Part shown: positions 31,588 to 49,987 of the stretch, piece after piece
Position numbering within the stretch: position 1 is the stretch's first letter
How the letters are laid out: each line of letters opens with the position of its first letter
Origin: Akkermansia muciniphila
GTDB lineage: Bacteria > Verrucomicrobiota > Verrucomicrobiia > Verrucomicrobiales > V1-33
Length of the DNA stretch: 64,000 nt
Direction: 5' to 3'
Assembly: GCA_945900785.1 (NCBI GenBank)
Contig: CAMDJM010000005.1
Coordinates: 31,866 to 95,865 of the forward strand
Position numbers and translations under genes: made by a program
Notes under the pieces: model-generated
What the model saw: only the letters and a program-made list of their open reading frames with translations
Databases searched by the model: none
Told to the model about the DNA's origin: nothing

Positions 31588-31725
31588 TCTCCATTACCAG
31601 CCCGCATTGCATGCCTGCGCGAAAACAAATGATTGACGCCTGACAGCCTGTTAACCCAGGATGAATTTCCTCTGCCCCCGCTCACCTGGTGCGGGAGGTG
31701 CTTTGCCCCAGAGCTGCCCCTTCCC

Positions 31726-34700
31726 ATGATGAAATCCGCTCCCGCTCCCTTCCTCCCCGATTGCCGCCGCCTCGCGGTTCTGATTTTCCTGACGGCCCCG
31801 TGCCTGCCTGCGGAGGCCGCTCCGGTGATCTCCGAAGTCATGACTTCGAACAGCGGCACCAGCACCGATGAGGATGGCGATTCCCCGGATTGGGTGGAAC
31901 TCTACAATCCCGATGCCACCCCGGTGAATTTGGAAGGCTGGTATCTGACCGACAATGCCGCGCGGCCGACCAAGTGGGCTTTCCCTTCGGGCGTGATTTT
32001 AGGGCCAGGCCAGTTCCTCGTGGTCTGGGCTTCGGGGAAAAACCGCACGGCAAATCCAGCCCATTTACATACGAATTTCTCCATCAGCGCCAACGGAGAA
32101 TACCTCGCCCTGATTTCCCCGGACCTCACGCTGAAGCCCAGCGTTTTTTCCCCTACCCTGCCTCCCCTGGAGCCGGATGAAGTCTACGGCCTGACTTTTT
32201 CCACCACCCGCCTGCTCGGCAGTGGCACTCCATCCCAAATCCTGGTGCCGGCGGACGGTGCCCTCAGCACCACCTGGACCCAACCTGATTTTACCCCAGG
32301 GGACGGCTGGACCACCGGCCCGCTCCATGCCGGCTTTGGCATCCCCACCCCCGGATTTTTCATTGAGGAGCGGCTGTCCAAAAACACCGTCACCTCCATC
32401 GCCACCGCAGAGTCCGTTCTGGCAGGAACCAATGCCCAGGATCTCCTGACCGCCGTGGTGCCCTTCGTCAATTTTTCCGGGGATACCGGCACGGACGGCC
32501 GCTTTGATGACGGTGTGGCCCCCCTGCACGGCGGGGACCAGTCGAACTTCGTGATCCGCGCGTCCGCCACGATCGTGATCCCCACCGCAGGGCAATGGAC
32601 GTTTCATGTGAACTCCGACGAGGGATTCCGGCTCCGGATCAATGGGGCCATCGTCACCTCCGAAGCCGGCCTGCGGGTGGCATCGGACACCCTGGTGTCC
32701 CGCACCCTGACTGCGGGCAACCAAACCGTGGTCCTGACGTATTTTGAAAATCTGGGCGCGGATGAACTGGAGTTGTCCGCCGCCAAGGGCACCCACACCA
32801 GCTTTTCCAGCTTCTTCAAGCTGATCGGGGATACCGCCCATGGCGGCTTGGCGGCGCTCACGCCGGCTGGCAGCGGGCAGTCGCTGGTCACCACGGATCT
32901 GGCTTCCCGCATGCTGCCGGTGAATCCCTCGGTGTATGTCAGGGTGCCCTTTACCCTGGCGGACCCGGCCGCCCCCGGCAGTCTGAACCTGACCATGCGG
33001 TATAACGACGGCTTCATCGCCTGGCTGAATGGCAGCGAGGTGGGACGCCGCAACGCCCCGGAACTGCCCGCATGGAATGCCACCGCCACAGCAGCGCGGG
33101 CCGTCCTGCCTTCCCTGGAACCGGAGATCCTGAATCTGACGGCCTCCCGCTCCCTGCTGAAAGCCGGGGATAACCTCCTGACGTTTCAGGGATTGAATGC
33201 GGCGGCCAATGACCCTTCCTTCCTCCTCGCCCCGGAGCTGGGCCTCTCCCAGCCGGATCCAAGCGGTCCGCGTTTTTTCCGGAAGGCCACCCCAGGCACC
33301 GCCAACCCGTCCACCGGCTACCTGGGCCATGCCGGGGATACCAGCTTTTCCCATAAACGCGGGTTCTACACCGCGCCCTTTTCCCTTGCCATCACCACCA
33401 GCAGCCCGGGCACCTCCATCCGTTATACCACCGATGGCAGCTTCCCCACCCCGGCCAACAGCACGGTTTATACCGCCCCGGTGCTGATCAGCAAAACCAC
33501 CGTGGTGCGGGCCATGGCCTTCCGGGAAGGCTACGAGTCCTCCAATGTGGACACCCAGACCTATCTTTTCCTCGACGATGTCATCCTGCAGGGTGGACCC
33601 AGTTCCCCCTACCACACCAGGCCCGGCCCCACCTGGCCGCTCCATGGCAGCGTGGCCGGGCAGGTCATCGATTACGGCATGGACCGCACCATCATCAACT
33701 CCACCAACGCCAACATCGGCGGTGCCGCCAGGGTCAAGGAAGCCCTCGCCGCCATTCCCAGCATGTGCATCACCACGGATGTCAGGAATCTCTTCGACGC
33801 CACCACCGGCATTTACACTCATCCCGGCAGCCACGGATCCAGTTGGGAACGCGCTGGAGCCCTCGAAATGCTGGGCGATCCCAACACCCCGGAGCGCGGC
33901 TTCCATTCCACCTGCGGCCTGCGCATCCGCGGGGGCTTCAGCCGCAGCACGGACAATCCCAAGCATTCCTTCCGTATTTTCTTCCGTTCGGAATATGGCC
34001 CCTCCAAGCTGGACTATCCAATCTTTGGGGCCGCCGGGGCCCATGAATTCGACGCCTTTGATATCCAGTGCTCACAAAATTACTCCTGGTCCTTCGGAGG
34101 GGATGCGGCCTACAATGCCCTGCGCGAAATCTGGAGCCGTGACGCCCAACTGGACCTCGGCTGGCAAAGCACCCGCGGGCGCTATGTCCATCTTTACCTG
34201 AACGGCATTTACTGGGGCCTCTACCAAATCCAGGAACGCGCCGAAGCCGCCTTCGGATCCACCTACATCGGCGGCAACAAGGACGACTACGATGTCATCA
34301 AGCACACCGGCAGTCCCGGGGGTTATACCACGGAAGCCACGGATGGTTATTTTGTCTCCCTGCCCGACGGCTCGCCCTCCGCCTGGAAGCAGCTCTGGAC
34401 CGCCGCCCGCGCCGCCTACTGGATCAATAACAACAAAAATCCCGCCTCCCCCGGCGTCACCCTCAATTCCTCCCCGCAGGACAAACTGACTGCCTTCTAC
34501 GGCCTGATGGGCCTCCAGGCCGATGGACGCACCCCCACGGGCAAGGCCGCCCTGCTGGATGTGGACAATCTGATCGACTACATCATGATCGTCTTCTTTG
34601 CCAAAAATGCGGACTCCCCCCTAACAGGCGGCGGCAGCAATCCGAATAACTTTTACTGCATGCGGGACCGGATGGGCCCCTTTGGATTCATCAGTGTGGA

Positions 34701-36894
34701 GCACGATGCGGAGCACTCCCTGGACGCCGGCGGAGCCAGCGACCGCTGGGGGCCTTTTGAAAGCCCCACCACCGGCAACTGGAATAACATCAACTACAGC
34801 AACCCGCAATACCTCCACCAGGACCTCGCCGCCTCTGCGGAATACCGGCAACGTTTCGGCGACCGCCTCTACCGCGCCTGCTTCAACAATGGGCCGCTAA
34901 CTCTGGCCAAAAACCATGCCCGCTTCGACCGCCGGGCCAGCCAGATCGAGACCGCCGTCTATGCGGAATCCGCCCGGTGGGGCGATGCCAAAACCACGCC
35001 AGCCCTGGGCGCCGGCAGTTGGCGGGCGGCGCGGACCGGCACCCGCAGCTTTTTCAACACCCGCACCACCCAATTCATCACCGAAGCCCGCTCGCGGGGC
35101 TTTTACCCGTCTATCGAGCCCCCTTCCTTCAACCAGCGCGGCGGAGCCGTCCCCCCTGGGTTCAACGTCGTCCTCGCAAATCCCAATACCCCGAACAGCC
35201 AGATCTTTTACACCCTGGACGGCTCCGACCCCCGGCCCATCGGCGGCGGCCTGATCAATACCGTGATCATCCCGGAAACCTCCACCGTCTCCTGGCTGGT
35301 GCCTTCCGGGGCCAATGGCGGCAGCCGCCTTTCCATCCCAGCCTGGACCGGCATCCTGCCGCCCCTCCGGGAAGCCACCTGGGAAACCGGGCCCATGGGT
35401 TTCGGCTTCAACCCGGCCGGCCGCACCGCCGCCACTAACTTCACCCCCTTCATCCGGACCGGCCTCGCCAGCGCCATGCAGAGCACCCCCGGCGCGGAGC
35501 TGGGCAGCCTTTATGTCAGAATGCCCTTCACCCTGACCCAGGAACAGATCCAATCCTTCCTGACCTTCCGCCTCCGCGTGCGTTATGACGATGGCCTCGT
35601 GGTCTATCTGAATGGCCAGGAAGTCGCCCGCAAAATCTTCCCCGCCGGCTCCATTCCCGCCTGGAACAGCCCCGCTGGAGGCAGCCATGCCGATGCTCTC
35701 GCCATCGTAGCCGAGGAAATCCCCATCGCCAGTTTCAAAACCCTGCTGCGCGAGGGCCCCAACGTGCTGGCCTTCCACACCATCAATCAAAGTCCGGTCA
35801 ATACCGACTTCCTCTTCAGTGCCTATGTGGAAACCGATGTTGCTGGCCCTGGATTTGGACAGCGTTATGCCGGCCCCATCCCCATCCCCGCCGGCACCAC
35901 CATCCGCACCCGGGTGCTCAATGGCAACGTCTGGTCCGCCCTCAATGAAGCCACCTTCTACACCGGCACCGTGCCTGCCAGCGCGGAAAATCTGGTGGTT
36001 TCGGAATTTTCCTATCAACCGGATGGAGCCCGCAGCGCCCTGGAATCCGCCTGGTCCTCCAGCGATTTCGAATTCATCGAGCTGTTGAACATCAGCAGCA
36101 ATAACGTCGATCTCTTCAATGTCACCCTCGCCAATGCGGCCAGCCTGGTGCTCGGCACCGTGCCGCAGCAGGTGGTCCTGCCCCCCGGCGGGCGGGTCAT
36201 CGTGGCCTCCAACCCCGCCGCCTTCACTCAGCGCTATCCAGTCAACGCCCGCGTCCTCGGCCCCTTCGTGGGCAGTCTGGATAACGGGGGGGAGTCCATC
36301 CGCCTCTCCGCCGCCGACGGCACCGCCATTAAAGAGTTCACCTACAGCAGCAGCGATCCCTGGCCCGAAGGCGCGGCAGGCGAAGGATTCACCCTGGTCC
36401 TGATCAACCCCGCCGCCAATCCCAACCACAACCAGGCCCCCAACTGGCGTTCCAGCACCACCCTTAACGGTCAGCCCGGCCAGCCCAAAGGAACCACTGC
36501 CTACACCGATTGGAAAACGGCCTGGCCGGAGTCCGCCGAAGACTTCGATGGCGATGGCGATGGCCTCCTTCCCCTGGCCGAATACGCCCTCGCCACCTCT
36601 CCCATCGTCCCCAGTCCCGCGGCCCTCCCCAAAGCCGAAATCCGTGAACTGGCCGTCGGTCAGCTCCGGGCTCCCTACCTCACCCTCAGCTTCATCCGGA
36701 ACCTCGCTGCCGATGATATCAAATACGACATCGAAAGCGCCCCGGACCCCGCCGCCCCCTGGAGTGCCGGAGCCGGCGTGCTCGTCAGCGAATCCAACAA
36801 CGGCGACGGCACCGCCACCATGATCTACCGCTCCCCCACCCCCGTCACCGCCGGCCAACGCCTCTTCCTCCGCCTCAAACTGACTTTGCGCTAA
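31726..36894 (+). CDS. giant secreted protein: lamin-tail domains, PA14-like and chitobiase-like modules, CotH-kinase-like domain
   Basis: EDGDSPDWVELYNPDATPVNLEGWYLTDN; GQWTFHVNSDEGFRLRING; YTTDGSFPTPANSTVYTAPV; FHSTCGLRIRGGFSRSTDNPKHSFRIFFRSEYG; DFDGDGDGLLPLAEYAL. Confidence 0.9.
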   Translation: MMKSAPAPFLPDCRRLAVLIFLTAPCLPAEAAPVISEVMTSNSGTSTDEDGDSPDWVELYNPDATPVNLEGWYLTDNAARPTKWAFPSGVILGPGQFLVVWASGKNRTANPAHLHTNFSISANGEYLALISPDLTLKPSVFSPTLPPLEPDEVYGLTFSTTRLLGSGTPSQILVPADGALSTTWTQPDFTPGDGWTTGPLHAGFGIPTPGFFIEERLSKNTVTSIATAESVLAGTNAQDLLTAVVPFVNFSGDTGTDGRFDDGVAPLHGGDQSNFVIRASATIVIPTAGQWTFHVNSDEGFRLRINGAIVTSEAGLRVASDTLVSRTLTAGNQTVVLTYFENLGADELELSAAKGTHTSFSSFFKLIGDTAHGGLAALTPAGSGQSLVTTDLASRMLPVNPSVYVRVPFTLADPAAPGSLNLTMRYNDGFIAWLNGSEVGRRNAPELPAWNATATAARAVLPSLEPEILNLTASRSLLKAGDNLLTFQGLNAAANDPSFLLAPELGLSQPDPSGPRFFRKATPGTANPSTGYLGHAGDTSFSHKRGFYTAPFSLAITTSSPGTSIRYTTDGSFPTPANSTVYTAPVLISKTTVVRAMAFREGYESSNVDTQTYLFLDDVILQGGPSSPYHTRPGPTWPLHGSVAGQVIDYGMDRTIINSTNANIGGAARVKEALAAIPSMCITTDVRNLFDATTGIYTHPGSHGSSWERAGALEMLGDPNTPERGFHSTCGLRIRGGFSRSTDNPKHSFRIFFRSEYGPSKLDYPIFGAAGAHEFDAFDIQCSQNYSWSFGGDAAYNALREIWSRDAQLDLGWQSTRGRYVHLYLNGIYWGLYQIQERAEAAFGSTYIGGNKDDYDVIKHTGSPGGYTTEATDGYFVSLPDGSPSAWKQLWTAARAAYWINNNKNPASPGVTLNSSPQDKLTAFYGLMGLQADGRTPTGKAALLDVDNLIDYIMIVFFAKNADSPLTGGGSNPNNFYCMRDRMGPFGFISVEHDAEHSLDAGGASDRWGPFESPTTGNWNNINYSNPQYLHQDLAASAEYRQRFGDRLYRACFNNGPLTLAKNHARFDRRASQIETAVYAESARWGDAKTTPALGAGSWRAARTGTRSFFNTRTTQFITEARSRGFYPSIEPPSFNQRGGAVPPGFNVVLANPNTPNSQIFYTLDGSDPRPIGGGLINTVIIPETSTVSWLVPSGANGGSRLSIPAWTGILPPLREATWETGPMGFGFNPAGRTAATNFTPFIRTGLASAMQSTPGAELGSLYVRMPFTLTQEQIQSFLTFRLRVRYDDGLVVYLNGQEVARKIFPAGSIPAWNSPAGGSHADALAIVAEEIPIASFKTLLREGPNVLAFHTINQSPVNTDFLFSAYVETDVAGPGFGQRYAGPIPIPAGTTIRTRVLNGNVWSALNEATFYTGTVPASAENLVVSEFSYQPDGARSALESAWSSSDFEFIELLNISSNNVDLFNVTLANAASLVLGTVPQQVVLPPGGRVIVASNPAAFTQRYPVNARVLGPFVGSLDNGGESIRLSAADGTAIKEFTYSSSDPWPEGAAGEGFTLVLINPAANPNHNQAPNWRSSTTLNGQPGQPKGTTAYTDWKTAWPESAEDFDGDGDGLLPLAEYALATSPIVPSPAALPKAEIRELAVGQLRAPYLTLSFIRNLAADDIKYDIESAPDPAAPWSAGAGVLVSESNNGDGTATMIYRSPTPVTAGQRLFLRLKLTLR

Positions 36895-37851: not shown

Positions 37852-38811
37852 TCAAGGATAGAGTTCCGCCAATTTCCGCAACAGGTCTTCCAATTTTTGA
37901 TAGTATTCTGCTTCCGGCAGGGCGGATTTTTGAAGGCGGAGGGCGCTGATTTTGGCTTCCCATTCATCACGCCGCCCAAGTTGAGCCGGGGTCATGGTTT
38001 GGGTGGCCGTGTCAGGCGTCAGGAAAGTGCGTTGGGCGTAGGACCCATCGACGGGCGTGTTGTCCTTGGCCTTGGAAGTGGCGCGCAGGCCGCGGAACCA
38101 CTCCGAAGGGGTGCCTTTGCCGTCGCCATTGTCATCGATCAGCGCGTGCTCGGTGAGGAGGCGTCCATCGGCTTGGTAGAACCCGGCAGTGAGACTGGAG
38201 GCACGGAGAAACCACTCCAGCACGGAAACGCTGCCGTCCTGGTCATAGTCGGCAGCGGGATCTGTCAGGGTGAGGGCGAGGTTATCGCCGAAGCGGGCGT
38301 AATTCCGCTCATTGCCGCTGCGGGTGGCGGTAACGATCGTGCGGTTAGGCCCGGCCAGCAGCGGGATGAAGGGAGCGCTGCTGGAACTGGTATTGATGAC
38401 GGTGAGCGGGCGTTTGAACGGGCGCAGCCACGTGGCGAGATCGGTGGCGGCGAGGTCGGGACCCTCAAGATTGAAGCGTGCTTCCTTGCCGTCCCACGTG
38501 CCGTGGCCGATCAGGATGATCCAAAGCGGGGCGGGTCCTTCCTTCGGGATATCTGTCAGGATTTTTTCAAGACGGGACCGGTCGTTTTCACCTGGTTTTG
38601 CCTCAGGCGAAACGGTGGGCAGAGTCAGGATTTCCGCGCCAGCCTGGCCCGCAGCCTTTTGCCAAGAGTCCGTTTGGTGCTGGAATTTTGTGCCGTAGTC
38701 CGCCTCCCCGGCAGCTCCCTCCACGAGGATGAGGGTCGTCCGCACGACAGAATTCTCCCCGGCAACGGAAGTGGCGGCCAGCAAGGTGGAGCAAAGGAGG
38801 AAAATCTTCAT
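37852..38811 (-). CDS. secreted caspase/C13-like protein lacking a catalytic Cys, with EF-hand-like loops
   Basis: IILIGHGTWDG, VINTSSSSAPFIPLLAGPNRTIVTATRSGNERNYARFGDNLA; DYDQDGSVSVLE and DDNGDGKGTPSE loops. Confidence 0.75.
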   Translation of the reverse strand: MKIFLLCSTLLAATSVAGENSVVRTTLILVEGAAGEADYGTKFQHQTDSWQKAAGQAGAEILTLPTVSPEAKPGENDRSRLEKILTDIPKEGPAPLWIILIGHGTWDGKEARFNLEGPDLAATDLATWLRPFKRPLTVINTSSSSAPFIPLLAGPNRTIVTATRSGNERNYARFGDNLALTLTDPAADYDQDGSVSVLEWFLRASSLTAGFYQADGRLLTEHALIDDNGDGKGTPSEWFRGLRATSKAKDNTPVDGSYAQRTFLTPDTATQTMTPAQLGRRDEWEAKISALRLQKSALPEAEYYQKLEDLLRKLAELYP

Positions 38812-41168
38812 GGTAGTCCCTGGGTGCGGCGCAATCCCCATTCCGCGATGAGGCAGCCGAGTGCAGTGAGAAAAAGCCACGGAGTGTGCCAGAGGGGCTC
38901 CTGCTGCGATTCCATGAGCGGGGCCTTTTCCCGTGGCAGCCGGGCAGCCAGGGCATCCAGGCCGGCGGGATCGGTCAGAGCACCACCCGTCCTGCGGGCG
39001 AGGGTTTCCAGCAACGCGGTGTCCGGGGTGAGGGAACGGAGTTCCTGCGCGGCAAGGTCGGTGGCCCATCCGGCAGAGGCCCGTCCTTCTTCCGCTCCGG
39101 CGGCATTGATGGCACGGGCGGTGACTTGATAGCCCCCGGTTTCACGGGGCAGGTAATTGGCGATGTAGAGCCCTGGCTCCGTGGGGGATGGTTCGGCCTG
39201 AAGGGTGAGGGAAGCCGGCGCGGGTGACGCTCCACTGTCGAATTTCACGGGTTTCACCTCAAGGGTAACCGTGGCGTTTTCCACGGGCTGGAATTTGTTG
39301 TCGCGGACTCTCACCTGCAACTCCACCACGCCGCTGGCATCCCCGGCTTTGGGTTCTGTGGTCAAGGCTACCCGGCCGGGCACATCGGCAACCAGCCAGC
39401 GCAGGAGCTGCCGCCAGGATTTTTCCAGATCCAGCCGCGCTTCCGGGCTGGTCATGCCCCACTTCCAGAGATCTCCAATCGTCAGGGCCGCGCTGCGTCC
39501 CCGGCCAAAACGCTGCACCACCAGCGCCGGGGCTTTTTCCCCGGATTTGTCAGTGGCGGTGGCGATCACTTCGGCTCCGGCCTTCACACCCCGCACCCGG
39601 TTCATCACCTGAAGCGGCGGCATCCCTGACAATCTCAACTTCTCCCCCGCTTCATCCGCCCTCAGCCGGGCCCAGGGTTGGAGCCAGCCCTCGCGGTCGA
39701 GATCAAATTTGAAGGGCTCGCGCGCTGGTGTTTCTGACGGGCGATCCAGACTCACCGGAAGCATTTCACCAATCGGGGTGCGGGCATAGGCCCCTTCGGA
39801 GAAACACTCCATCCCCCCCAGCATAAGAAAGCCGCCGCCGCGTTCGGAAACAAAGCGTTGCAGCAGGGCGGCCTGCGTTTGGGTGAAAAAGGCGCTCTCA
39901 AGGTCGTCGATGATCACGGCATGATAACCAAATAAATCCTCCGGGATGGCAGGGAAGCCGGAGCGCAATTCCACGTCGTCTTTGGTATTCAGCCGCACCA
40001 GCACAGGTTGATCATAACTGGCCACTTCGCCCTTGGCCTGATCTTCCGTGCCGCGGAATAACGGATTGCTGGTTTCCCCGGCGCGGCCTAGAAACGAAAA
40101 TTTCGGCTCGCGGCGGGCGACCCGGATCAGTCCGGTCAATTGCACCTGGGAATCGCTATCCAGGGCACGGTTGAGGAATTTGTATTCCCAGTTCGGCCGG
40201 CCGGAGACATAAAGAATGCGATAGGGGCCGCTGTTCCGGTCCACCACCACCACCCGCTGGTTATTGGCGAGGGTCGCTTCGCGGGTGGTGTTTCCGGTTT
40301 CAGCGCTGTCGCGGATGGAAAATTGGTGGAAAGAGACGCCGGGCGGAGCGGTTTTGATTTGAAAGCGGAAGGGCAGGACGGCGCTCCCGGGCGGGACTTC
40401 ACGGCTTTGTTCCTCGATTACTTTGCCGCTGCTGTCCATCATCCGGGCGGAAAGGCTGCTTCCGCTGAAGCCGGTGGTGCCGACCTCGGCATCGACGGTG
40501 ACAGGCGCGTCCTCGAAAGCGGTCTGCGTCACCGAAACCTTGCGCACTGACAAATCATGGGCTGGCCCTTTTCCGCCGATCACCACCGGATAAACCGGAG
40601 GCAGAGCGCCAGCATCAGCCGGCAGGCTGGTGAGGTCGGTGGCCAGGCCATCCGTCAATAGCACAATTCCCGCGAGGGGCCGGCCCCGGAAGCGTTCACT
40701 GATCAATTGCAGTGAGGTGCCCAGTGTCGAAGCCCGGCCATCAAAAGTAAGTCCGGCAAATGATTCCACCTGTTGCAGCCGCTGGTCGAAGGTGTAACGG
40801 CGGAGATCGAAGGAATCAGCGAGAGCGGTCTGCCATGGGGAAAGCGCAGGGTCCAGGATCGCCTTCAGTGCCGCCGAACGTGGCCCGGTGGCTCCCTCAT
40901 CGGTGACCTGCAGGCTGCTGCTGTTGTCGGCGAGGATCACCATCAGATTGGCTCCCGGGCGGGCCCGCTGCCGGGTCCATTGCGGTTCCAGAACACACAT
41001 GGCGAGCAGCGTCAGCGCGGCAATCTTCAAGCCGGCGCATAACCAACGCCGGCGCAGCCGCGCGGAGCGGTAACTCCAGAGCACCGCGACCGCCGCCATG
41101 GCCAAGCCCGCCAGCACCGGCCATCGCCAGCTCTCCCCTGAAAAAGTGATCGTGGCCGAAACTATCAT
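38808..41168 (-). CDS. membrane VWA-like protein with GATase1-like domain
   Basis: MVILADNSSSLQ, GIVLLTDG, RILYVSGRPNWEYKFLNRAL, ERGGGFLMLGGMECFSEGAY; ATGA overlap with the next gene. Confidence 0.85.
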   Translation of the reverse strand: MIVSATITFSGESWRWPVLAGLAMAAVAVLWSYRSARLRRRWLCAGLKIAALTLLAMCVLEPQWTRQRARPGANLMVILADNSSSLQVTDEGATGPRSAALKAILDPALSPWQTALADSFDLRRYTFDQRLQQVESFAGLTFDGRASTLGTSLQLISERFRGRPLAGIVLLTDGLATDLTSLPADAGALPPVYPVVIGGKGPAHDLSVRKVSVTQTAFEDAPVTVDAEVGTTGFSGSSLSARMMDSSGKVIEEQSREVPPGSAVLPFRFQIKTAPPGVSFHQFSIRDSAETGNTTREATLANNQRVVVVDRNSGPYRILYVSGRPNWEYKFLNRALDSDSQVQLTGLIRVARREPKFSFLGRAGETSNPLFRGTEDQAKGEVASYDQPVLVRLNTKDDVELRSGFPAIPEDLFGYHAVIIDDLESAFFTQTQAALLQRFVSERGGGFLMLGGMECFSEGAYARTPIGEMLPVSLDRPSETPAREPFKFDLDREGWLQPWARLRADEAGEKLRLSGMPPLQVMNRVRGVKAGAEVIATATDKSGEKAPALVVQRFGRGRSAALTIGDLWKWGMTSPEARLDLEKSWRQLLRWLVADVPGRVALTTEPKAGDASGVVELQVRVRDNKFQPVENATVTLEVKPVKFDSGASPAPASLTLQAEPSPTEPGLYIANYLPRETGGYQVTARAINAAGAEEGRASAGWATDLAAQELRSLTPDTALLETLARRTGGALTDPAGLDALAARLPREKAPLMESQQEPLWHTPWLFLTALGCLIAEWGLRRTQGLP

Positions 41169-44100
41169 TTATGGTTCCTTCCCCAGTTGCTCATAATACC
41201 GGCGCACCAATTCGGAATACCGGCCGGGCACGGGATCGCGGTCGATCGGCACGAGGGCTTCCGTGGAAGCGCGCCGGGCCACTTCCTCGCGGACCTGTTT
41301 CCGCACCTGGACGAGTGGGGTCAGGATTTCTGATTTCACCACGGCCCAATCCGGTTTTTTCAAATCACGCTTTGCCTCCACCCGCAGCTGCCGCGCGCGC
41401 TCGCGGGCGTTGGCCAGGCTATTGCGCAGGTCCGGGAATTCGACCATTTCCTCGACATCACGCAACCGGTCAGACCATGGCGCATAACCATCGCCGGCAA
41501 TGGGTGAGGAGGACCCGCCGCGGCCGCTGGCGGTTTGCGTGGCACTGCTGTTTTGTGGAGTGGAGCGGCCAGGCCCGCCCGGGCCGCTGCCGCCGGAAGG
41601 GTTTTGGGCGGCTTGGCGCGTTGGAGAGCCCTGGCCCTGGCCTTGCGCTTCACCTTCACCTTCACCTTCACCTTCACCTTCACCTTCACCTTCACCTTCA
41701 CCTTCACCTTCACCTTGGCCTTGGCCTTGGCCTTCACCTTTGGCTTGGGTATTCCCTTCGCCTTCGGTGCTGGCGGTAGCTGAAGCAGGTTTTTGGCTAT
41801 CGTCTTTTGGCTGGCCTTCGCCTTGGCCTTGGCCTTGGCTTTGGCTTTGAGGATCTCCTGAGGCTTCGGATTTGGATTCGCCCGGGCTGGTGGCTTTTCC
41901 CTGGTTGGAGGGGTTCGCCGGGTCGGCTGGCCCCGTCGTGCTCCCGGATAATTCCTTTTCCAATTCATCAGTTAAGGAAGCGAGTTCGCGCTCGGCCCGC
42001 TTGAGGGCTTCCGTGTCGTCGCCCAGGACGCTTTCCGTGGCCCGCTCGATGCCGGATTTGAGATTATCGATGCCGGCTTGTGCCAGGGTGGAGCTGGTTT
42101 TGGCTTCCTCCAGAAGATCCTGCTCCAAAAGACCGGAGGTTAGTTGCTGGGTCTTGGCGGTGTCCGGACTTTGCTGGAGTTCGGAAAGTTCGTCCATGAA
42201 CTTCCGGGTCATGCGGCCTTCGTCGATCAGTTGCTGTTGGGTCTTCCTGATGGAAGCGGCGTCCTCCTGGGTGAACGTCCGCATCGTATCGTAGAGCTGA
42301 CGCGAGACCAGCGGCTCTGCGCTTTCGGCTTCTTCAGAGAGCGTTTTTGCCTTTTTGGTCAGGCTTTCGGTGCGTTGTTTTTGTCCGGCGAGTTGTTTTT
42401 GCGCCGCCTCCCGCTCCGGGGTGTCGCTGAGGGATTTTTGTTGGGGGTTTTCCAAATCGGCCAATTTTTCCGTGAGTTGCTGTTGTTGGCTGGCCAGCTC
42501 GCGGGCTTCAGCGCGCATGTCGCGGAGATCCTGGGAAAAGGCGGTGCTGCTCTTCTTCCGCAAGTCCTCGCGCATCTCCTGAAGCTGCCGCTCGGCGCGG
42601 GTGCCGGAGGCGAGGGCTTTGGGAACATTTCCCTCTGCGGTGGCTTTGGCGGCTTCCTGCACATTTTGGCGGGCTTCTTCCAGAGCCTTTTTCTCCTGGG
42701 CCAGGGTTTCCTCGTTCTCCGGCTTTTCCATGCGTTGGCTCAGCTCATCCACCTCGGCCAGCATCTGGCGCTGTTCTTCTTCCAGTCTTTTCAGTTCGCG
42801 CTTCAGTTCCCCGCGCTGCGCATCGGATTCCGCCGCCTGCAGGGCAGTTTGCAGTTCCTTCAATTTTTCATTCACTTCCTCCTGACGTTTCGCCAGCTCC
42901 TGCAACCGGCTCAGGACCTGACGTTGCTCGCGTTGTGCAGCGTCCTGCGGGGATTCTGCCTCGCTCCTGGTTTCATACCGGTTTTCCTCCTTGGTCAGGT
43001 CCAACTGGTCCAATTCTTCCTGACGTTTTTGCTCCGCGGCAGAGGGCGGGCCTCCTTTGCTTTTACTTTTCGAAATCCGGTGTTCCCGCGCCGCGAGGGC
43101 GAGCAGGGCCTGATAGGCGGATTGTTCTGCGGCGAGGGCGGGGTTGAGCGGGGCAGGTTGATCGACCACCGCCTGGAGGGCCGCGCCGGCTTTGGTCATG
43201 GCTGTTTTGGCGCTCTCCCAAGCGCTGATCAATCGGGGATCGGTGGCTTCGGTGGCAGCCCCGGTGGCTTGTTCCAGAGCATCCGCCTGGGATTCCCGGA
43301 CTACTTTGATATCGGCCGTGGCGGGGTTGGCGCTGCGCTGGAGCTTCCAGGTGGCATTGATGATTTGTTTCTGGAGTTCGGCTAGTTTCGCAGAAGGAGT
43401 GCCCTCCGGCGGAGCTTGGCCAGGCGGAGGATCGCCGGCGGCTTCTTCACCCTGGCGGTAGATTTCATCAAAGGGTCTCACTTCGCCAAAAAACAGGTCA
43501 CTTTGGGTGCGGCGGGGTTTTCCGTCCATGCCGGTATCATCCGCCCAGACGGACCACGAGAGCAGATCGTCCGGTTTCGCGCCGGATTCTTCGAGGCGGA
43601 GCAGATAGTGGAAGGCCCGTTTTTCGCCGCCCGGGGCGCCCTTGCCCAGCTCGATAAACTGCGGTTCGCCGCCTCCCCTGGTGATGGCAAGTCCCCAGGC
43701 GTGCAGGCCAAAGTCATCCCCGGCGGTGCCTTCGAAAACCAATTCCTCCAGAGCGGAGGGACGTTGATCGCCGCGTGGGGAGGTCAATTTGAGATCGGGT
43801 ATTTTGTTGGGGAGCGCCTCGAAGGTGAAGGTGGCGGGGACCTTGTTGGTGCGGGAACTGGAATCTGTCAGGATGAGGTCGTATATCACGCTGGAAGTCA
43901 GGGCGAAACCGCGCAGGCTGGCGGTGGCTTTGCCGGGATCAACTGTCAGCGGAATATCAGCCGCGCCTTGGGTGCGGGCTTTGAGGACGGCGGTGGCGAC
44001 GGGTTTGTTGAGTTGCAGATCCAGTCCCAGCAGGGTGCCTTCCACGGCACTGGCGCGGTGGGAGTCTTCGATGCGTTTTTCCGCCAGACCAGTCCAGCCT

Positions 44101-44936
44101 GGGTAAGTCAGGGTGACGTCAGGGCGCTCCAGCCGGGGATATTCAAAGACGTTGACGGAAAAATCCCGGCTGCGTTTGCCATCGTAATCAATGCGGTAGC
44201 GGAAGTCGTCTTTGGCGTCAGGGATGCTGCCGCCGAAAACGGGATCACTCAGGCTGCGGACGAGGAACTGGCGGTGTTCGGTTTCCCGAGTATGGCCGGT
44301 CACCAGTTCGACGGACGCAGGCAGGGCACCGCTGAAACGCGCCATGACGAGGAGGCTGGTGCCGCGCTCGATGGCGGTGTCGCCCGGCGTGACTTCGGTA
44401 CCGTCCGGCAATCCAAGGGAGTCAAGGCTGGCCGTGGAACTGGAAGTGAACCCGGATTTCGGGGCAAGGAAGACGACGGCAAAACAGGCGAGCGCAGCGG
44501 CATAACAAGCGACCCGGGGGGTGGCAGCGGCGCGGGGGGAGAGGAGGCTATGCCAATCGTGATCCAGGCTGTGCTGGATGGTTTGCTGGAGCAGACGCTC
44601 TTTGATAAAGGCGGGTTCATCGGTGTCGTCCACCTCGACTGCGGTGAGGAGGCGACCGTCGAGAGCGGGTTGATGGGATTCGAGGCGGCGGGCGATGCGG
44701 CGGAAGTCGGGCTTGGCCCAACGCCCTGCCAGCCAAATCACGCCCACGCCAAACAGGCTGGCTCCCAGCCAGGCAGGCATCGTCCATGAGGGAAGGGCGG
44801 CCGGCTCGAGGAATAAAACGGTCCAACCAACGAGTGCCGCGAAGGCCAGCCAGAGGGCGAGGCGCCGGTTGGTTTGCCAGCGGTGGTAGCGTTGCCACAC
44901 GGGCAGCAGGCGTGCTTTCAGATAGGGATTGATCAT
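41169..44936 (-). CDS. large coiled-coil membrane protein (DUF4175-like)
   Basis: start MINPYLKARLLPVWQRYHRW; N-terminal TM pair; long Glu/Gln/Lys/Arg coiled coil; GQGEG low-complexity tract. Confidence 0.8.
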   Translation of the reverse strand: MINPYLKARLLPVWQRYHRWQTNRRLALWLAFAALVGWTVLFLEPAALPSWTMPAWLGASLFGVGVIWLAGRWAKPDFRRIARRLESHQPALDGRLLTAVEVDDTDEPAFIKERLLQQTIQHSLDHDWHSLLSPRAAATPRVACYAAALACFAVVFLAPKSGFTSSSTASLDSLGLPDGTEVTPGDTAIERGTSLLVMARFSGALPASVELVTGHTRETEHRQFLVRSLSDPVFGGSIPDAKDDFRYRIDYDGKRSRDFSVNVFEYPRLERPDVTLTYPGWTGLAEKRIEDSHRASAVEGTLLGLDLQLNKPVATAVLKARTQGAADIPLTVDPGKATASLRGFALTSSVIYDLILTDSSSRTNKVPATFTFEALPNKIPDLKLTSPRGDQRPSALEELVFEGTAGDDFGLHAWGLAITRGGGEPQFIELGKGAPGGEKRAFHYLLRLEESGAKPDDLLSWSVWADDTGMDGKPRRTQSDLFFGEVRPFDEIYRQGEEAAGDPPPGQAPPEGTPSAKLAELQKQIINATWKLQRSANPATADIKVVRESQADALEQATGAATEATDPRLISAWESAKTAMTKAGAALQAVVDQPAPLNPALAAEQSAYQALLALAAREHRISKSKSKGGPPSAAEQKRQEELDQLDLTKEENRYETRSEAESPQDAAQREQRQVLSRLQELAKRQEEVNEKLKELQTALQAAESDAQRGELKRELKRLEEEQRQMLAEVDELSQRMEKPENEETLAQEKKALEEARQNVQEAAKATAEGNVPKALASGTRAERQLQEMREDLRKKSSTAFSQDLRDMRAEARELASQQQQLTEKLADLENPQQKSLSDTPEREAAQKQLAGQKQRTESLTKKAKTLSEEAESAEPLVSRQLYDTMRTFTQEDAASIRKTQQQLIDEGRMTRKFMDELSELQQSPDTAKTQQLTSGLLEQDLLEEAKTSSTLAQAGIDNLKSGIERATESVLGDDTEALKRAERELASLTDELEKELSGSTTGPADPANPSNQGKATSPGESKSEASGDPQSQSQGQGQGEGQPKDDSQKPASATASTEGEGNTQAKGEGQGQGQGEGEGEGEGEGEGEGEGEGEGEAQGQGQGSPTRQAAQNPSGGSGPGGPGRSTPQNSSATQTASGRGGSSSPIAGDGYAPWSDRLRDVEEMVEFPDLRNSLANARERARQLRVEAKRDLKKPDWAVVKSEILTPLVQVRKQVREEVARRASTEALVPIDRDPVPGRYSELVRRYYEQLGKEP
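41648..41713. repeat. 11 perfect tandem copies of the hexamer cttcac
   Basis: direct count; encodes (GE)n on the minus strand; followed by cttggc units encoding GQ. Confidence 0.95.
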
Positions 44937-47044
44937 GCGGTGGTTCCTCCTGGAGTGGCCCGCCGGGCGCTGAGGCCGGCGAGCAGGGTTTCCATAAACA
45001 ATACGGCGAGCGCGGTGACGATGATCCACCGCCAGAGTTTTTGGCGGCTTTCGGTCTCCATGGCGGGGCCAGCCCCGGCGGGGTCCGGTTTTTTAATGCT
45101 GGTGCCAGGGACTTTCAGGGGGACGCCCAGCCGATCCAGTTCATCCGGGGCCATGGGGGCGGTGTGGGATTCCACGGGATCCAAATTGACCGCGAAGGCA
45201 CGTGTCAGGATGCCGGCGGTGGCTTCATAAATCCCGGGCGGGGTGGCTCCCTCGAACAGGCCGGACCCGGCGGCGACGCCGGTGCTGGTTCCATCCGGAT
45301 GTTTGATGGTGATGGCGTTTTCCTTCCTGAATCCCAGCTGGAACAAGGAGATTGGTGGTCCGGCGAGGAATTGTGAGGGTGGGGTGACGATGGCTCCACT
45401 CCATTCCAGCAGGGAGGAAAGCAGGGGTGCGAATTTTGAAGAGAGGGCGAGTTGGCTATCGTGGGGATGCCAGCCGGTTGTTAGAATCACCAGCCGCCCG
45501 GCACCAACCGGCATTTCCATGAGGGCGGGATCGCCGGAATCAAATTTGGCCAGGACACGGCTGCCAGGCAAGGCGGCGGCGGCGAGACGGCGGTAGTTCC
45601 AGACGCGGATTTTGGTGAAGTCGCTGAAACGGGGGTCCGCAAACGGAGCGAAGAGCGGATGCTGGAAATCGATTTGCGATAACATGCCGTAGTTGGCCGG
45701 TTTGGTTTCTTCCAGTTTCACGGCTTCTTCCGCCAGACCGGCAAGACGGGCGAGGGTGCTGCCGGCCTGGTGGTCCGTCAGGGAATAGAGAACGGTTTTT
45801 CCAGAAGTGAGCTGGTTATGAAGGAAGCCGGCCTGGACTGGCGGCAGGGCACCGCTGGCGGTGAAACCGACGGATTTGCCAGTCAGGATGGCTGGTGGAG
45901 CATCGGCAGGGGCGATGGCAGTCACGGTGGTTTTTACCTGACTGTTTTGAGGCAGGGCCCGGTTGAGGAAGAAGAGCGGCTGCTGGGCATCCGTGGGAGA
46001 TTCCGCGCCAAAATAGAAGACCTGAATATCGGTGGTGACGGGCGGGGTGGCGAAGAGGAGGTTGTCGAAAGTCTCGTGATCTCCACGCAGGAGAATCCTG
46101 CCGGGAGCGGTTGATCCGGCCGGCCATGGCAGGCTAACCACCCGCAATTGGCCGGGAGGCACGTAAACATCCTGCGCGGTTCCGCTGAAGGTCTGGCCAT
46201 CGGCAGCGGCCCAGCCCAATTGGAATTGTTCGGTGGTGGAATCCTGGGCATTCCAAACGCGGACGCGGGCAGCGGGTTCGCTGGTGGTGGTGATTCCGGA
46301 AAAATCCGGGGCCAATTGCAGACCGGCGTTGCCGGGTTTGGTTGGTTTGATAGGAACGGGAATGACCTGCACGCCCTGGGGCCATTCCCAGCCTTGGAGG
46401 CCTTCGGTTTTGCTGCCGTCCTGGAAGTCGCTGATAACCATGATATCTCCGCCGGGCTGGGAGCTGGCCGGGGCAGTTTCGGCCAGGATTTCTGCGGCAC
46501 TTAGCAGCGCAGCAGAAAGCGGAGTGGCGGACCAGCCGGGCTTGGATTCTGTGAGAAAGCCCAGGGCGGTGGCGGCCCGGGTTTCCGTGGGAAGGGCGTT
46601 CCATTGGGCGAAGTCGAAGAGGCGGTGCGTGGTGGAGTCGAAGGTCCAGAGGGCGAGTTGATCGCCCGGTTTGGTGGAGTGGATGAAGTCACGTGCTTTT
46701 TCCAGGGCAGCGGCCTGCAGGCCATCGCGCTGCATGCTGGCGCTTTGATCGACCAGCAAAATCATGCGCCGGCCGGAGCCGGCGGAATCAGTCTCCGGGA
46801 AGACGCTGCGGATGAAGGGGCGGGCGAAGGCGAGTGCCAGCAGGGCAAGGGCAGTGGCGCGCAATAGCAGGAGCAGCCAGTGCTCGATACGGCTGCGTTG
46901 GGTGAGGCGCGGTGGGTCAGGACGGAGAAAAAGCAGGGAGCTGAAGGGGATCTTTTCCCGGGTGGTGCGCCGGATGAGGTGGAAGAACACCGGGGCGGCG
47001 ATGGCCAGTGCACCGAGCAGGAAGAAAGGAGCTAGAAGGCTCAT
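44933..47044 (-). CDS. BatA/VWA-domain membrane protein
   Basis: MSLLAPFFLLGALAIAAPVFFHLIRRTTREKIPFSSLLFL; MIDAS ILLVDQSASMQ. Confidence 0.93.
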   Translation of the reverse strand: MSLLAPFFLLGALAIAAPVFFHLIRRTTREKIPFSSLLFLRPDPPRLTQRSRIEHWLLLLLRATALALLALAFARPFIRSVFPETDSAGSGRRMILLVDQSASMQRDGLQAAALEKARDFIHSTKPGDQLALWTFDSTTHRLFDFAQWNALPTETRAATALGFLTESKPGWSATPLSAALLSAAEILAETAPASSQPGGDIMVISDFQDGSKTEGLQGWEWPQGVQVIPVPIKPTKPGNAGLQLAPDFSGITTTSEPAARVRVWNAQDSTTEQFQLGWAAADGQTFSGTAQDVYVPPGQLRVVSLPWPAGSTAPGRILLRGDHETFDNLLFATPPVTTDIQVFYFGAESPTDAQQPLFFLNRALPQNSQVKTTVTAIAPADAPPAILTGKSVGFTASGALPPVQAGFLHNQLTSGKTVLYSLTDHQAGSTLARLAGLAEEAVKLEETKPANYGMLSQIDFQHPLFAPFADPRFSDFTKIRVWNYRRLAAAALPGSRVLAKFDSGDPALMEMPVGAGRLVILTTGWHPHDSQLALSSKFAPLLSSLLEWSGAIVTPPSQFLAGPPISLFQLGFRKENAITIKHPDGTSTGVAAGSGLFEGATPPGIYEATAGILTRAFAVNLDPVESHTAPMAPDELDRLGVPLKVPGTSIKKPDPAGAGPAMETESRQKLWRWIIVTALAVLFMETLLAGLSARRATPGGTTA

Positions 47045-47991
47045 CGTGCCCCCTTTCTAACGAGGCGTCCGCGTTGCAGTCGGTCGTGGAGAAATTCCGT
47101 GAGGACGGTCTCCAGCGGGGTGACCGTGGAGACGGTGTGCCAGCCGATCCCCAGCTTGCGGCAGATTTCACCCAGAGCCGTTTGGTGGGCGGTGAAGCGC
47201 TCCAGATACCCACTGCGGGCCGCGGCGGGGTCCACGAAGAGGGTGCGGCCGGTTTCGGCGTCCTCAAAAATGGCTGGTGCGGTGAAGTTGAAGGTGAGTT
47301 CCGCCAGATCGAGGATCTGGAAAAGCACCACCTCGTGGCCTGAAGCGGTGAGGGAAAGGAGATGGCGCTCCAGTTCCTCCAGCGACGTCAGGAAGTCGGA
47401 GATGACGACCATGAGGGCGCGCTTCCTGACGATTTCCGTAATCCGCTGGAGGGGCTTGATGAGATCCGTGGCGGTGCCGCCGGCGGGCTTGTCGAGGGCG
47501 ATGATGATTTGGCGGAGGTGGCCGTGGCGCTGTTTGGCAGGAAGGTAGTCGCGCAGGGCGGCATCGAAGCTGAGCAGGCCGACGGCATCGCCCTGGAGAT
47601 GAAGAAATCTGGCGAGGGTGGCGGCCAGGGTGGCAGCGTAGGCGGCCTTGGTCCAGCCGGTAGTGCCGTAGGCCATGGAGTGACTTTGGTCCACGATCAG
47701 ATGGCAGCGTAGGTTGGTTTCGTCCTCGAACTTTTTGATATAATAACGATCGCTCCGGGCATAGACGCGCCAGTCGAGATGCCGGGGATCATCGCCCGGG
47801 GTGTATTGGCGGTATTCTGTGAACTCAACGGAAAATCCATGGTAGGGGCTCCGGTGCAGGCCGGACCAGAAGCCTTCCACCACGGCGCGGGCGCGGAGTT
47901 CCAGGCTGCGGATGGACATCAGCGCGGCCGTGTCAATCCGCGACGCCGGCGGGGGAGCCGGGGGGAGGACGGAGGCGGGCAGGGCGGACAT
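47041..47991 (-). CDS. DUF58 protein
   Basis: ARAVVEGFWSGLHRSPYHGFSVEFTEYRQYTPGDDPRHLDWRVYARSDRYYIKKFEDETN. Confidence 0.96.
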   Translation of the reverse strand: MSALPASVLPPAPPPASRIDTAALMSIRSLELRARAVVEGFWSGLHRSPYHGFSVEFTEYRQYTPGDDPRHLDWRVYARSDRYYIKKFEDETNLRCHLIVDQSHSMAYGTTGWTKAAYAATLAATLARFLHLQGDAVGLLSFDAALRDYLPAKQRHGHLRQIIIALDKPAGGTATDLIKPLQRITEIVRKRALMVVISDFLTSLEELERHLLSLTASGHEVVLFQILDLAELTFNFTAPAIFEDAETGRTLFVDPAAARSGYLERFTAHQTALGEICRKLGIGWHTVSTVTPLETVLTEFLHDRLQRGRLVRKGAR

Positions 47992-48121: not shown

Positions 48122-49141
48122 TCAGGCTTTTACATGGTCCATGAGTTTTTGAATAACGTCATCGATTCGAATGCCGTCGGCTTCAGCGCGGTAGTTGAGG
48201 AGGACGCGGTGGCGGAGGACGGGGGCGGCGAGGAACTGGATGTCCTCCAGTTTGACATGGACGCGGCCATGGAAAAGAGCGCGGGCTTTGGCGGCCAGGA
48301 TGAGGGATTGCCCGGCGCGGGTGCCAGCTCCCCAACTGACCCAGTTATTGACAAAATCCGGAGTGCCAGGCTGGCGGGGGCGCGAAGCCACCGCCAGACG
48401 GACGGCGTAGGTGATGAGTTCGGTGGTGACGGGGACTTGTTGGACCAGCTGGTGGAAGCGCTGGACATCGGCTCCGGTGAAGAGCGGCTCGATTTTGACA
48501 GGACGGCCGCTGGTGGTGCGCCGGACGACTTCAACTTCGTCAGCCTCGGGGAGGTATTTCATGACCACATTGAACATGAAGCGGTCCAGCTGGGCTTCCG
48601 GCAAGGGGTAGGTGCCTTCCATTTCGATAGGATTCTGGGTGGCGAGGACAAAGAAGGGTTCTGCCAGAGGATGGCGGATGCCCATGGCGGTGACCTGGTG
48701 TTCCTGCATGGCTTCCAGCAGGGCGGCCTGGGTCTTGGGCGGGGTGCGGTTGATTTCGTCAGCCAGCACCATGTTGGCGAAGATAGGGCCAGGGACAAAA
48801 GTCATCCTGCGGCCTGCGCCGGAGTCCTGGAGGATCTCCGTGCCGGTGATGTCGGCGGGCATGAGGTCCGGGGTGAACTGGATGCGCTGGAAGTGGAGAT
48901 CGAAGATTTGGGAGATGCTTTTCACCAGGAGGGTTTTGGCCAGGCCAGGGGCACCGGTGATGAGACAGTGGCCACCGGCGAGGAGTGACAGCATGATCTG
49001 TTCAATCACTTCGCGCTGGCCGACGATGGCTTTTCCCAGCTCCGTCTCAATGAGGCTGCGGCCGGTGAGGAGGCGCTCGACGAGGGCGGAATCGGTCTCC
49101 GGAGAACCGTGCTGGGTGGGGGAAGTGGGGTCCTGGTTCAT
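48122..49141 (-). CDS. MoxR-family AAA+ ATPase
   Basis: GAPGLAKTLLVKSISQIFDLHFQRIQFTPDLMPADITGTEI, LADEINRTPPKTQAALLEAMQE. Confidence 0.96.
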   Translation of the reverse strand: MNQDPTSPTQHGSPETDSALVERLLTGRSLIETELGKAIVGQREVIEQIMLSLLAGGHCLITGAPGLAKTLLVKSISQIFDLHFQRIQFTPDLMPADITGTEILQDSGAGRRMTFVPGPIFANMVLADEINRTPPKTQAALLEAMQEHQVTAMGIRHPLAEPFFVLATQNPIEMEGTYPLPEAQLDRFMFNVVMKYLPEADEVEVVRRTTSGRPVKIEPLFTGADVQRFHQLVQQVPVTTELITYAVRLAVASRPRQPGTPDFVNNWVSWGAGTRAGQSLILAAKARALFHGRVHVKLEDIQFLAAPVLRHRVLLNYRAEADGIRIDDVIQKLMDHVKA

Positions 49142-49987
49142 TCAGTGGGTCATGACGTAAAAGATGATATTGATCGCGAGGGGGTAGGCGGTGCGCTCGG
49201 AAAATTGTTTGAAGTAGTAGGCGCTCTCGCCTTCGCGTTCCCAGCCGTCGCCGTTGTCCGTGTTATGCAGGGCGATGACCATGGGGCGGCCTTTGTCGTC
49301 GAAGATGGCGCGGTGGTGGACTTCCTGGGCGTCGTCGCGTTCCCAGGTGCGGCCACCGTATTCGCTGGCGGCACCGAGATCGATATTCGGGACCTGGGCC
49401 TTTTCCTTGATCGTGAAAACGCTGCGGTAGATCGGATGCGTGAGGGGGATTTCCTGGAAGGAGCGGTTGGGCAGGACCTGTTTGAGGACTTCCTCGCAAT
49501 TCGTCCAATCTTCCTCACCCCAGAAGTCATCCAGCAGCAGGAAGCCGCCGTTTTCCAGATACTTCCGCATGGCGAGAGTTTCTTCCTCACTGAACGACAG
49601 GCCGCCGGGCTCCGCGATATAAACAAAAGGAAAGGTCATCAGCTCCGGATCGGTGGGGCGGATGATGCGGGTGTCAGGATCGACCTTCAGGCTGGTCATC
49701 TGTTGGAGACGCCACGAGAGATTGAGGTCGCTGTCCGGCAAGTCAGTCGCCCAGCCGCCCCGCCCCCAACCGCCGCCACCGCGCTCATACCGGATGCGGG
49801 TGAAGGTGAAGACGTCCGCCTTGAACGCTTCCGGACACTCCCAGGTGGGCGTGCCGGTGCTGCCGGAGGGCACTTCGCGGGCGGTGCGGACTTCTTCCAT
49901 GCCATTGCCCCGGCGTCCCCAGCGCTGGGCGGAAGCCACCCCCGCAGCAATCAACAGGAGCAGAGCGGGAAGGCGGCGGAATTTCAT
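49142..49987 (-). CDS. DUF4159 protein
   Basis: DVFTFTRIRYERGGG.W, MRKYLENGGFLLLDDFWGE, LPNRSFQEIPLTHPIYRSVF. Confidence 0.9.
   Translation of the reverse strand: MKFRRLPALLLLIAAGVASAQRWGRRGNGMEEVRTAREVPSGSTGTPTWECPEAFKADVFTFTRIRYERGGGGWGRGGWATDLPDSDLNLSWRLQQMTSLKVDPDTRIIRPTDPELMTFPFVYIAEPGGLSFSEEETLAMRKYLENGGFLLLDDFWGEEDWTNCEEVLKQVLPNRSFQEIPLTHPIYRSVFTIKEKAQVPNIDLGAASEYGGRTWERDDAQEVHHRAIFDDKGRPMVIALHNTDNGDGWEREGESAYYFKQFSERTAYPLAINIIFYVMTH

Follow-up and report, generated by a model that had tools for sequence, protein, structure and literature searches.

The locus raises the question of what a protein that resembles a caspase or legumain, and has no cysteine with which to cut, could do beside the genes of a MoxR/VWA system. 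It was analysed within a stretch of 64,000 nucleotides (the window), where the gene P0001 lies on the same strand as genes for MoxR-type, DUF58, BatA/VWA and DUF4159 proteins (Table 1). We read its product, with moderate confidence, as a secreted C13/legumain-like pseudopeptidase that is translationally coupled to a membrane VWA/GATase-like protein and acts as a periplasmic subunit of a MoxR/DUF58/BatA-type envelope system. The motifs on which the preliminary description had been built, namely the His motif IILIGHGTWDG (residues 98–108), the later strand motif (VINTSSSSAPFIPLLAGPNRTIVTATRSGNERNYARFGD, residues 138–176) and both loop sequences, are all present in the ORF, and C7, the only Cys, falls inside the putative signal peptide and leaves the mature protein without any, as that description had stated. 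The hydrophobic N-terminus is shared by 72 of the 88 orthologues checked, and the window protein is probably secreted. The gene is present as a single copy in its own genome. No model of Pfam or NCBIfam covers the protein above the cut-off: the Pfam scan gave only EF-hand matches below the threshold, and the NCBIfam scan gave no match.

Table 1. Features of the C13-like gene and of the genes around it, with positions in the window
Feature	Position	Strand	Basis or remark
C13/legumain-like pseudopeptidase gene P0001	37852..38811	-	319 aa + stop
Signal peptide, residues 1 to ~19 (MKIFLLCSTLLAATSVAGE)	38755..38811	-	predicted from sequence, by eye and hydropathy; holds the sole Cys, C7
Gly-His-Gly, residues 102-104; H103 is the catalytic His homologue	38500..38508	-	aligned with GHG of C13 domains
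Ser143, catalytic Cys homologue	38383..38385	-	profile and multiple alignment
Thr141, variable column, 2 residues upstream of Ser143	38389..38391	-	nucleophile of the preliminary description
Asp loop 1, residues 188-199 (DYDQDGSVSVLE)	38215..38250	-	canonical EF-hand-type 12-residue loop
Asp loop 2, residues 226-237 (DDNGDGKGTPSE)	38101..38136	-	near-invariant first half
C-terminal helical segment, residues 275-317	37861..37989	-	two modelled helices, 275-293 and 300-317
Upstream partner: membrane protein with GATase1-like domain	38808..41168	-	PF07090 above cut-off; putative VWA-like N-terminal region, from sequence reading only
Long membrane coiled-coil protein	41169..45029 (ORF limits)	-	real start probably internal, near MINPYLKARL
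BatA/VWA membrane protein	44933..47044	-	PF07584 and PF13519
DUF58 protein	47041..47991	-	PF01882
MoxR-type AAA+ ATPase	48122..49141	-	PF07726, 208 bits
Secreted DUF4159 protein	49142..49987	-	PF13709

The model computed with ColabFold from 37 orthologues (mean pLDDT 91.8, pTM 0.88) predicts a central sheet with flanking helices, in which the His comes after one strand and the nucleophile position after the following one, as in the caspase-haemoglobinase fold of clan CD. In the Foldseek comparison with the PDB, plant legumain was the top match (E 1.9e-7); metacaspase-9 and caspases came next, while MALT1 and GPI transamidase ranked lower. All these matches had a probability of 1.00 and moderate TM-scores (0.30–0.61). 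The preliminary description had proposed a caspase/C13-like fold and had suggested a comparison of a predicted structure with legumain and caspases, and the model, the Foldseek matches and the profile match to C13 domains given below all agree with it. Since the direct search of the PDB with the sequence of the window protein or with the family profile found nothing useful, the structure model and a bridge alignment of C13 domains were needed. This bridge alignment (A2) consists of bacterial C13-like domains whose His-Cys dyad is intact, mostly from one Desulfobacteraceae genome, and in profile comparison it matches legumain at 7e-10, with its CxSG Cys opposite the CESG Cys of legumain. The family profile in turn matches A2 with a probability of 98.7 and an E value of 1.6e-16, while the best E value was 0.03 in 100 column shuffles and 0.12 with the reversed alignment. 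Moreover, PF01650 was detected by 6 of the 37 orthologues (best 2.3e-5), with no match for the window protein and none in its own genome. The fold and the homology to C13 domains are computational results, as are the family-wide lack of the catalytic Cys, the conservation of the Asp loops and the operon linkage described below. The family shares with peptidase family C13 (legumain, GPI transamidase; PF01650) the fold, the GHG motif and the order of motifs from the strand with a CxSG-like segment and F through GPxR to T/S-A/S, and differs from it by the absence of the catalytic Cys in 94 of 94 orthologues and by the extra Asp loop 1 and the C-terminal helices. Among the features of an active C13 peptidase, the GHG-type His is present, the Cys of C-x-S-G is absent and the gathering cut-off of PF01650 is not reached. 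We file the protein as C13-like by descent and not as a C13 peptidase, since the Cys that defines such peptidases was looked for and is missing.

The fate of the nucleophile was followed in 94 orthologues of full length, which come from Verrucomicrobiota, Planctomycetota and Acidobacteriota and are among the matches listed in the genome search; this sample corresponds to the loci returned by that search, some Acidobacteriota matches having been left out as loci. The fact that these orthologues keep H103 (94/94), D188 (94/94), D226 (90/94) and E199 (93/94) argues that the family is not a product of chance. The gene of L008, a record titled Klebsiella pneumoniae, is almost identical to that of L006, a record titled Akkermansia muciniphila, and lies within a verrucomicrobial branch; these MAGs seem to be mislabelled as to species. 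In the profile alignment, VINTSSSSAPF of the family stands without gaps opposite VIYDACKSGSF or FILESCYSGTF, which places Ser143 at the position of the catalytic Cys. The preliminary description had placed the nucleophile at Thr141; as the homologue of the nucleophile, this residue is ruled out by the profile and the multiple alignment, both of which point to Ser143. Column 143 holds Ser in 79, Ala in 8, Glu in 5 and Pro in 2 of the orthologues and never Cys, which answers the proposed survey of Cys versus Thr/Ser and bears out the pseudopeptidase reading. Column 141 holds Cys in 37, Thr in 34, Gly in 9, Ala in 8, Leu in 5 and Ser in 1. Thus, a Cys conserved elsewhere, which would have spoken against that reading, was not found, as Cys141 occurs in only 37 of the 94.

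The protein could instead be a hydrolase that is active through an unusual nucleophile, either Ser143 (by a change of Cys to Ser), Ser145 or, in other orthologues, Cys141. The invariance of His103, the presence of Ser145 in 92 of 94 orthologues and the frequency of Cys141 in Planctomycetota are in its favour, and because of His103 some chemistry could remain, which counts against the pseudopeptidase reading. However, 15 of 94 orthologues have Ala, Glu or Pro instead of Ser143, and 10 changes between Ser and non-Ser are needed at this position on a tree of 95 rows built without a C13 outgroup, which makes a Ser/Thr nucleophile, the variant offered in the preliminary description, unlikely; Ser143 was therefore rejected in this role. 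The shifted nucleophile Cys141 of Planctomycetota was rejected as well, being not conserved and requiring 8 changes on the same tree, 6 of them forced by well-supported branches (at least six gains or losses). The conservation of Ser145 is explained without catalysis, since it equals the Ser that accompanies the Cys in the CxSG motif of dyad-bearing C13 domains. Neither column 143 nor column 141 shows the behaviour of an essential nucleophile, and we regard the active hydrolase as very unlikely. Rooting the loss of Cys with L119, a standalone planctomycete protein described below, was abandoned, as this protein sits on a long branch (3.24) whose placement is poorly supported; the direction of the change was accordingly taken from the presence of Cys in the C13 outgroup alone.

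The two Asp loops had been described as canonical 12-residue loops, which holds for loop 1 and not for loop 2. Loop 1 has the EF-hand pattern (ligands 1, 3, 5, 9 and 12), and in the 94 orthologues D188 is present in 94, S196 in 93 and E199 in 93, with D190 (Asn in 11) and D192 also conserved; EF-hand_5 (PF13202) scores 18.4 bits on it, below the cut-off of 25.9. In loop 2, D226 (90/94), D227 (94/94), D230 (93/94) and G233 (93/94) are conserved, and the pattern fails at position 12, where 78 orthologues have Asp (42), Glu (17), Thr (8), Ser (5) and others. Without a conserved ligand at that position, only loop 1 can be called a canonical EF-hand-type loop. Loop 2 is a DDNGDGxG loop, which recurs as LDDNGDG in the dyad-intact C13 domains L083, L084 and L074 and as IDDNGDG in L086. 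As relatives with the dyad also carry the loops, these are not a consequence of lost activity. We infer from the pattern of ligands that Ca2+ is bound in the Asp loops and that the fold is stabilised in this way. The loops might alternatively work as a Ca2+ sensor that switches the pseudo-pocket or the docking helices and reports external Ca2+ to the VWA/MoxR machine. This would agree with the loop ligand positions being among the most conserved in the protein and with the Ca2+ activation of several clan CD peptidases (PMC4357240); nevertheless, loop 2 occurs in dyad-bearing C13 domains and both loops in the standalone L119, so that a structural role of Ca2+ is simpler and the sensor seems unlikely.

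The coupling to a MoxR/VWA locus that had been predicted for this gene is supported across the family. In the window, the gene shares 4 nt with the VWA/GATase-like gene upstream of it (ATGA, where the start codon of the former overlaps the stop codon of the latter), and MoxR, DUF58 and BatA genes are adjacent, as is characteristic of Bat-type operons. The VWA/GATase-like gene lies directly upstream on the same strand in 88 of the 94 loci; in 85 of these 88 the pseudopeptidase gene starts between -20 and +50 nt from its stop codon, and 68 have a 4-nt overlap of the NTGA type. The neighbour went undetected for the remaining 6 orthologues, two of which are matches at contig ends, and the coiled-coil gene is also upstream in most loci with enough flank. 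Matches at E<=0.001, including distant ones, were found in 32 of 388 genomes of Verrucomicrobiota, 39 of 294 of Planctomycetota and 37 of 149 of Acidobacteriota. Concerning the coiled-coil gene of the window, the listed ORF begins within the BatA gene, and the Met start at MINPYLKARL would leave a short overlap of the two genes; its part at 41360-41968 (minus strand) is a long low-complexity repeat of Gly, Glu and Gln (GEGEGEG..., QGQGQG...), with spurious ORFs in other frames. It may also be that the GATase1-like and DUF4159 domains of the neighbouring proteins are non-catalytic too, which would make an operon of several pseudo-enzymes.

More divergent homologues occupy other positions within related loci, either after VWA-DUF4159 genes (L157, L158, L160, L161, L172) or before MoxR-DUF58 genes (L162, L163, L164, L173). 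According to alignments that rest on low identity, most of them have no Cys and in some the GHG is altered too. Five proteins of 700-900 aa (L061, L062, L066, L068 and L164, the last one directly before MoxR-DUF58) have an N-terminal domain that is a degenerate relative of the family. In three divergent planctomycete loci (L167, L168, L170), downstream of a VWA/GATase-like gene, the His of GHG and a Cys are kept at the catalytic columns; judged from these residues, the three may be active occupants of that slot in the operon, which is thus not always catalytically dead. Two others (L165, L166), which by their scores belong to the same divergent subgroup, have Ser at the catalytic column, so Cys and Ser appear to exchange within one subgroup and one operon slot. 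In addition, the planctomycete protein L119 (1492-2856, P0002) has PCHSGGF at the catalytic column, an intact His-Cys dyad and both Asp loops, and within its 15 kb neighbourhood no homologue of the window MoxR/VWA genes was found.

For caspases, c-FLIP is a decoy regulator. By analogy, the window protein might regulate an active peptidase of clan CD by binding either that enzyme or its substrates, a typical mode of action of pseudopeptidases; the three divergent relatives that keep the dyad in VWA loci of other genomes would be compatible with it. Against this, in a search with PF01650 only, no C13 match was found in its own genome or in 7 of 8 other genomes that were searched by way of family loci, the remaining one (Desulfobacteraceae) having 21 matches, and we think such a decoy quite unlikely. 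A binding or scaffold subunit is preferred, since the fold and pocket without a nucleophile, the export, the coupling to a membrane partner and the conserved C-terminal helices, in which R281 and E285 are nearly invariant, all fit. Such a pseudopeptidase would fold in the periplasm, its Asp loops probably occupied by Ca2+, and dock onto its membrane partner through the C-terminal helices. The retained pocket (GHG, FNLxGPD, R157, TAT) would bind but not cleave a peptide or protein segment, and the MoxR ATPase could remodel the assembly from the cytoplasm via the VWA/DUF58 proteins.

Two groups of known proteins are precedents in kind for the window family. The first is the bacterial pseudo-orthocaspases, prokaryotic proteins of caspase fold that have lost the His-Cys dyad, often with Ser in place of Cys (PMC6426788). 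Those described belong to C14/p20, occur mostly in Alphaproteobacteria and Cyanobacteria and usually have Tyr for His (PMC6426788), whereas the window family has an invariant His, C13-like affinity, hosts in Verrucomicrobiota, Planctomycetota and Acidobacteriota, and a MoxR/VWA operon. The second is the inactive caspase domains of the MoxR-vWA ternary conflict systems, where inactivity is reported for about 70% of the caspase domains that are joined to the vWA component (eLife 2020, PMC7159879). Like these systems, the window locus combines MoxR, vWA and a caspase-superfamily domain. However, their caspase domains occur as fusions with vWA or VMAP components (PMC7159879), while the window protein is a separate protein, predicted to be secreted, beside DUF58, BatA, DUF4159 and GATase-like envelope genes. 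No VMAP, iSTAND or beta-propeller third component was seen among the eight neighbouring proteins scanned. The window MoxR exceeds the cut-off of the bpMoxR model (37.3 versus 27 bits), yet its AAA_3 score is far higher (208.5). The locus resembles the Bat (Bacteroides aerotolerance) operon in its MoxR, DUF58 and BatA-type VWA membrane proteins, and in the literature searched we found no description of Bat loci with a C13-like subunit, nor, in open-access literature, of a C13-like family bound to such an operon. When all bat genes were deleted in Leptospira biflexa, no phenotype was seen either in growth or under oxidative stress (PMC3557215).

MoxR/VWA envelope operons are widespread, and a coupled, putatively secreted pseudopeptidase points to recognition of extracytoplasmic proteins or peptides as a part of their job, and the pocket, the Asp loops and the partner protein offer a handle for testing the role of such operons. 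Relatives with and without the Cys, sitting in one and the same operon slot, form a natural set for studying the passage from protease to pseudoprotease. Speculatively, and with considerable doubt, we suggest that the MoxR/DUF58/VWA/DUF4159 envelope machines of Verrucomicrobiota, Planctomycetota and Acidobacteriota have their own C13-like recognition arm, mostly dead and loaded with Ca2+, as the periplasmic equivalent of the MoxR-vWA-caspase systems inside the cell, the peptidase being kept active in a few lineages. Elsewhere in the window, an ORF of 1753 aa on the plus strand (31633-36894) reads like a secreted protein of lamin-tail and CotH type with repeated domains.
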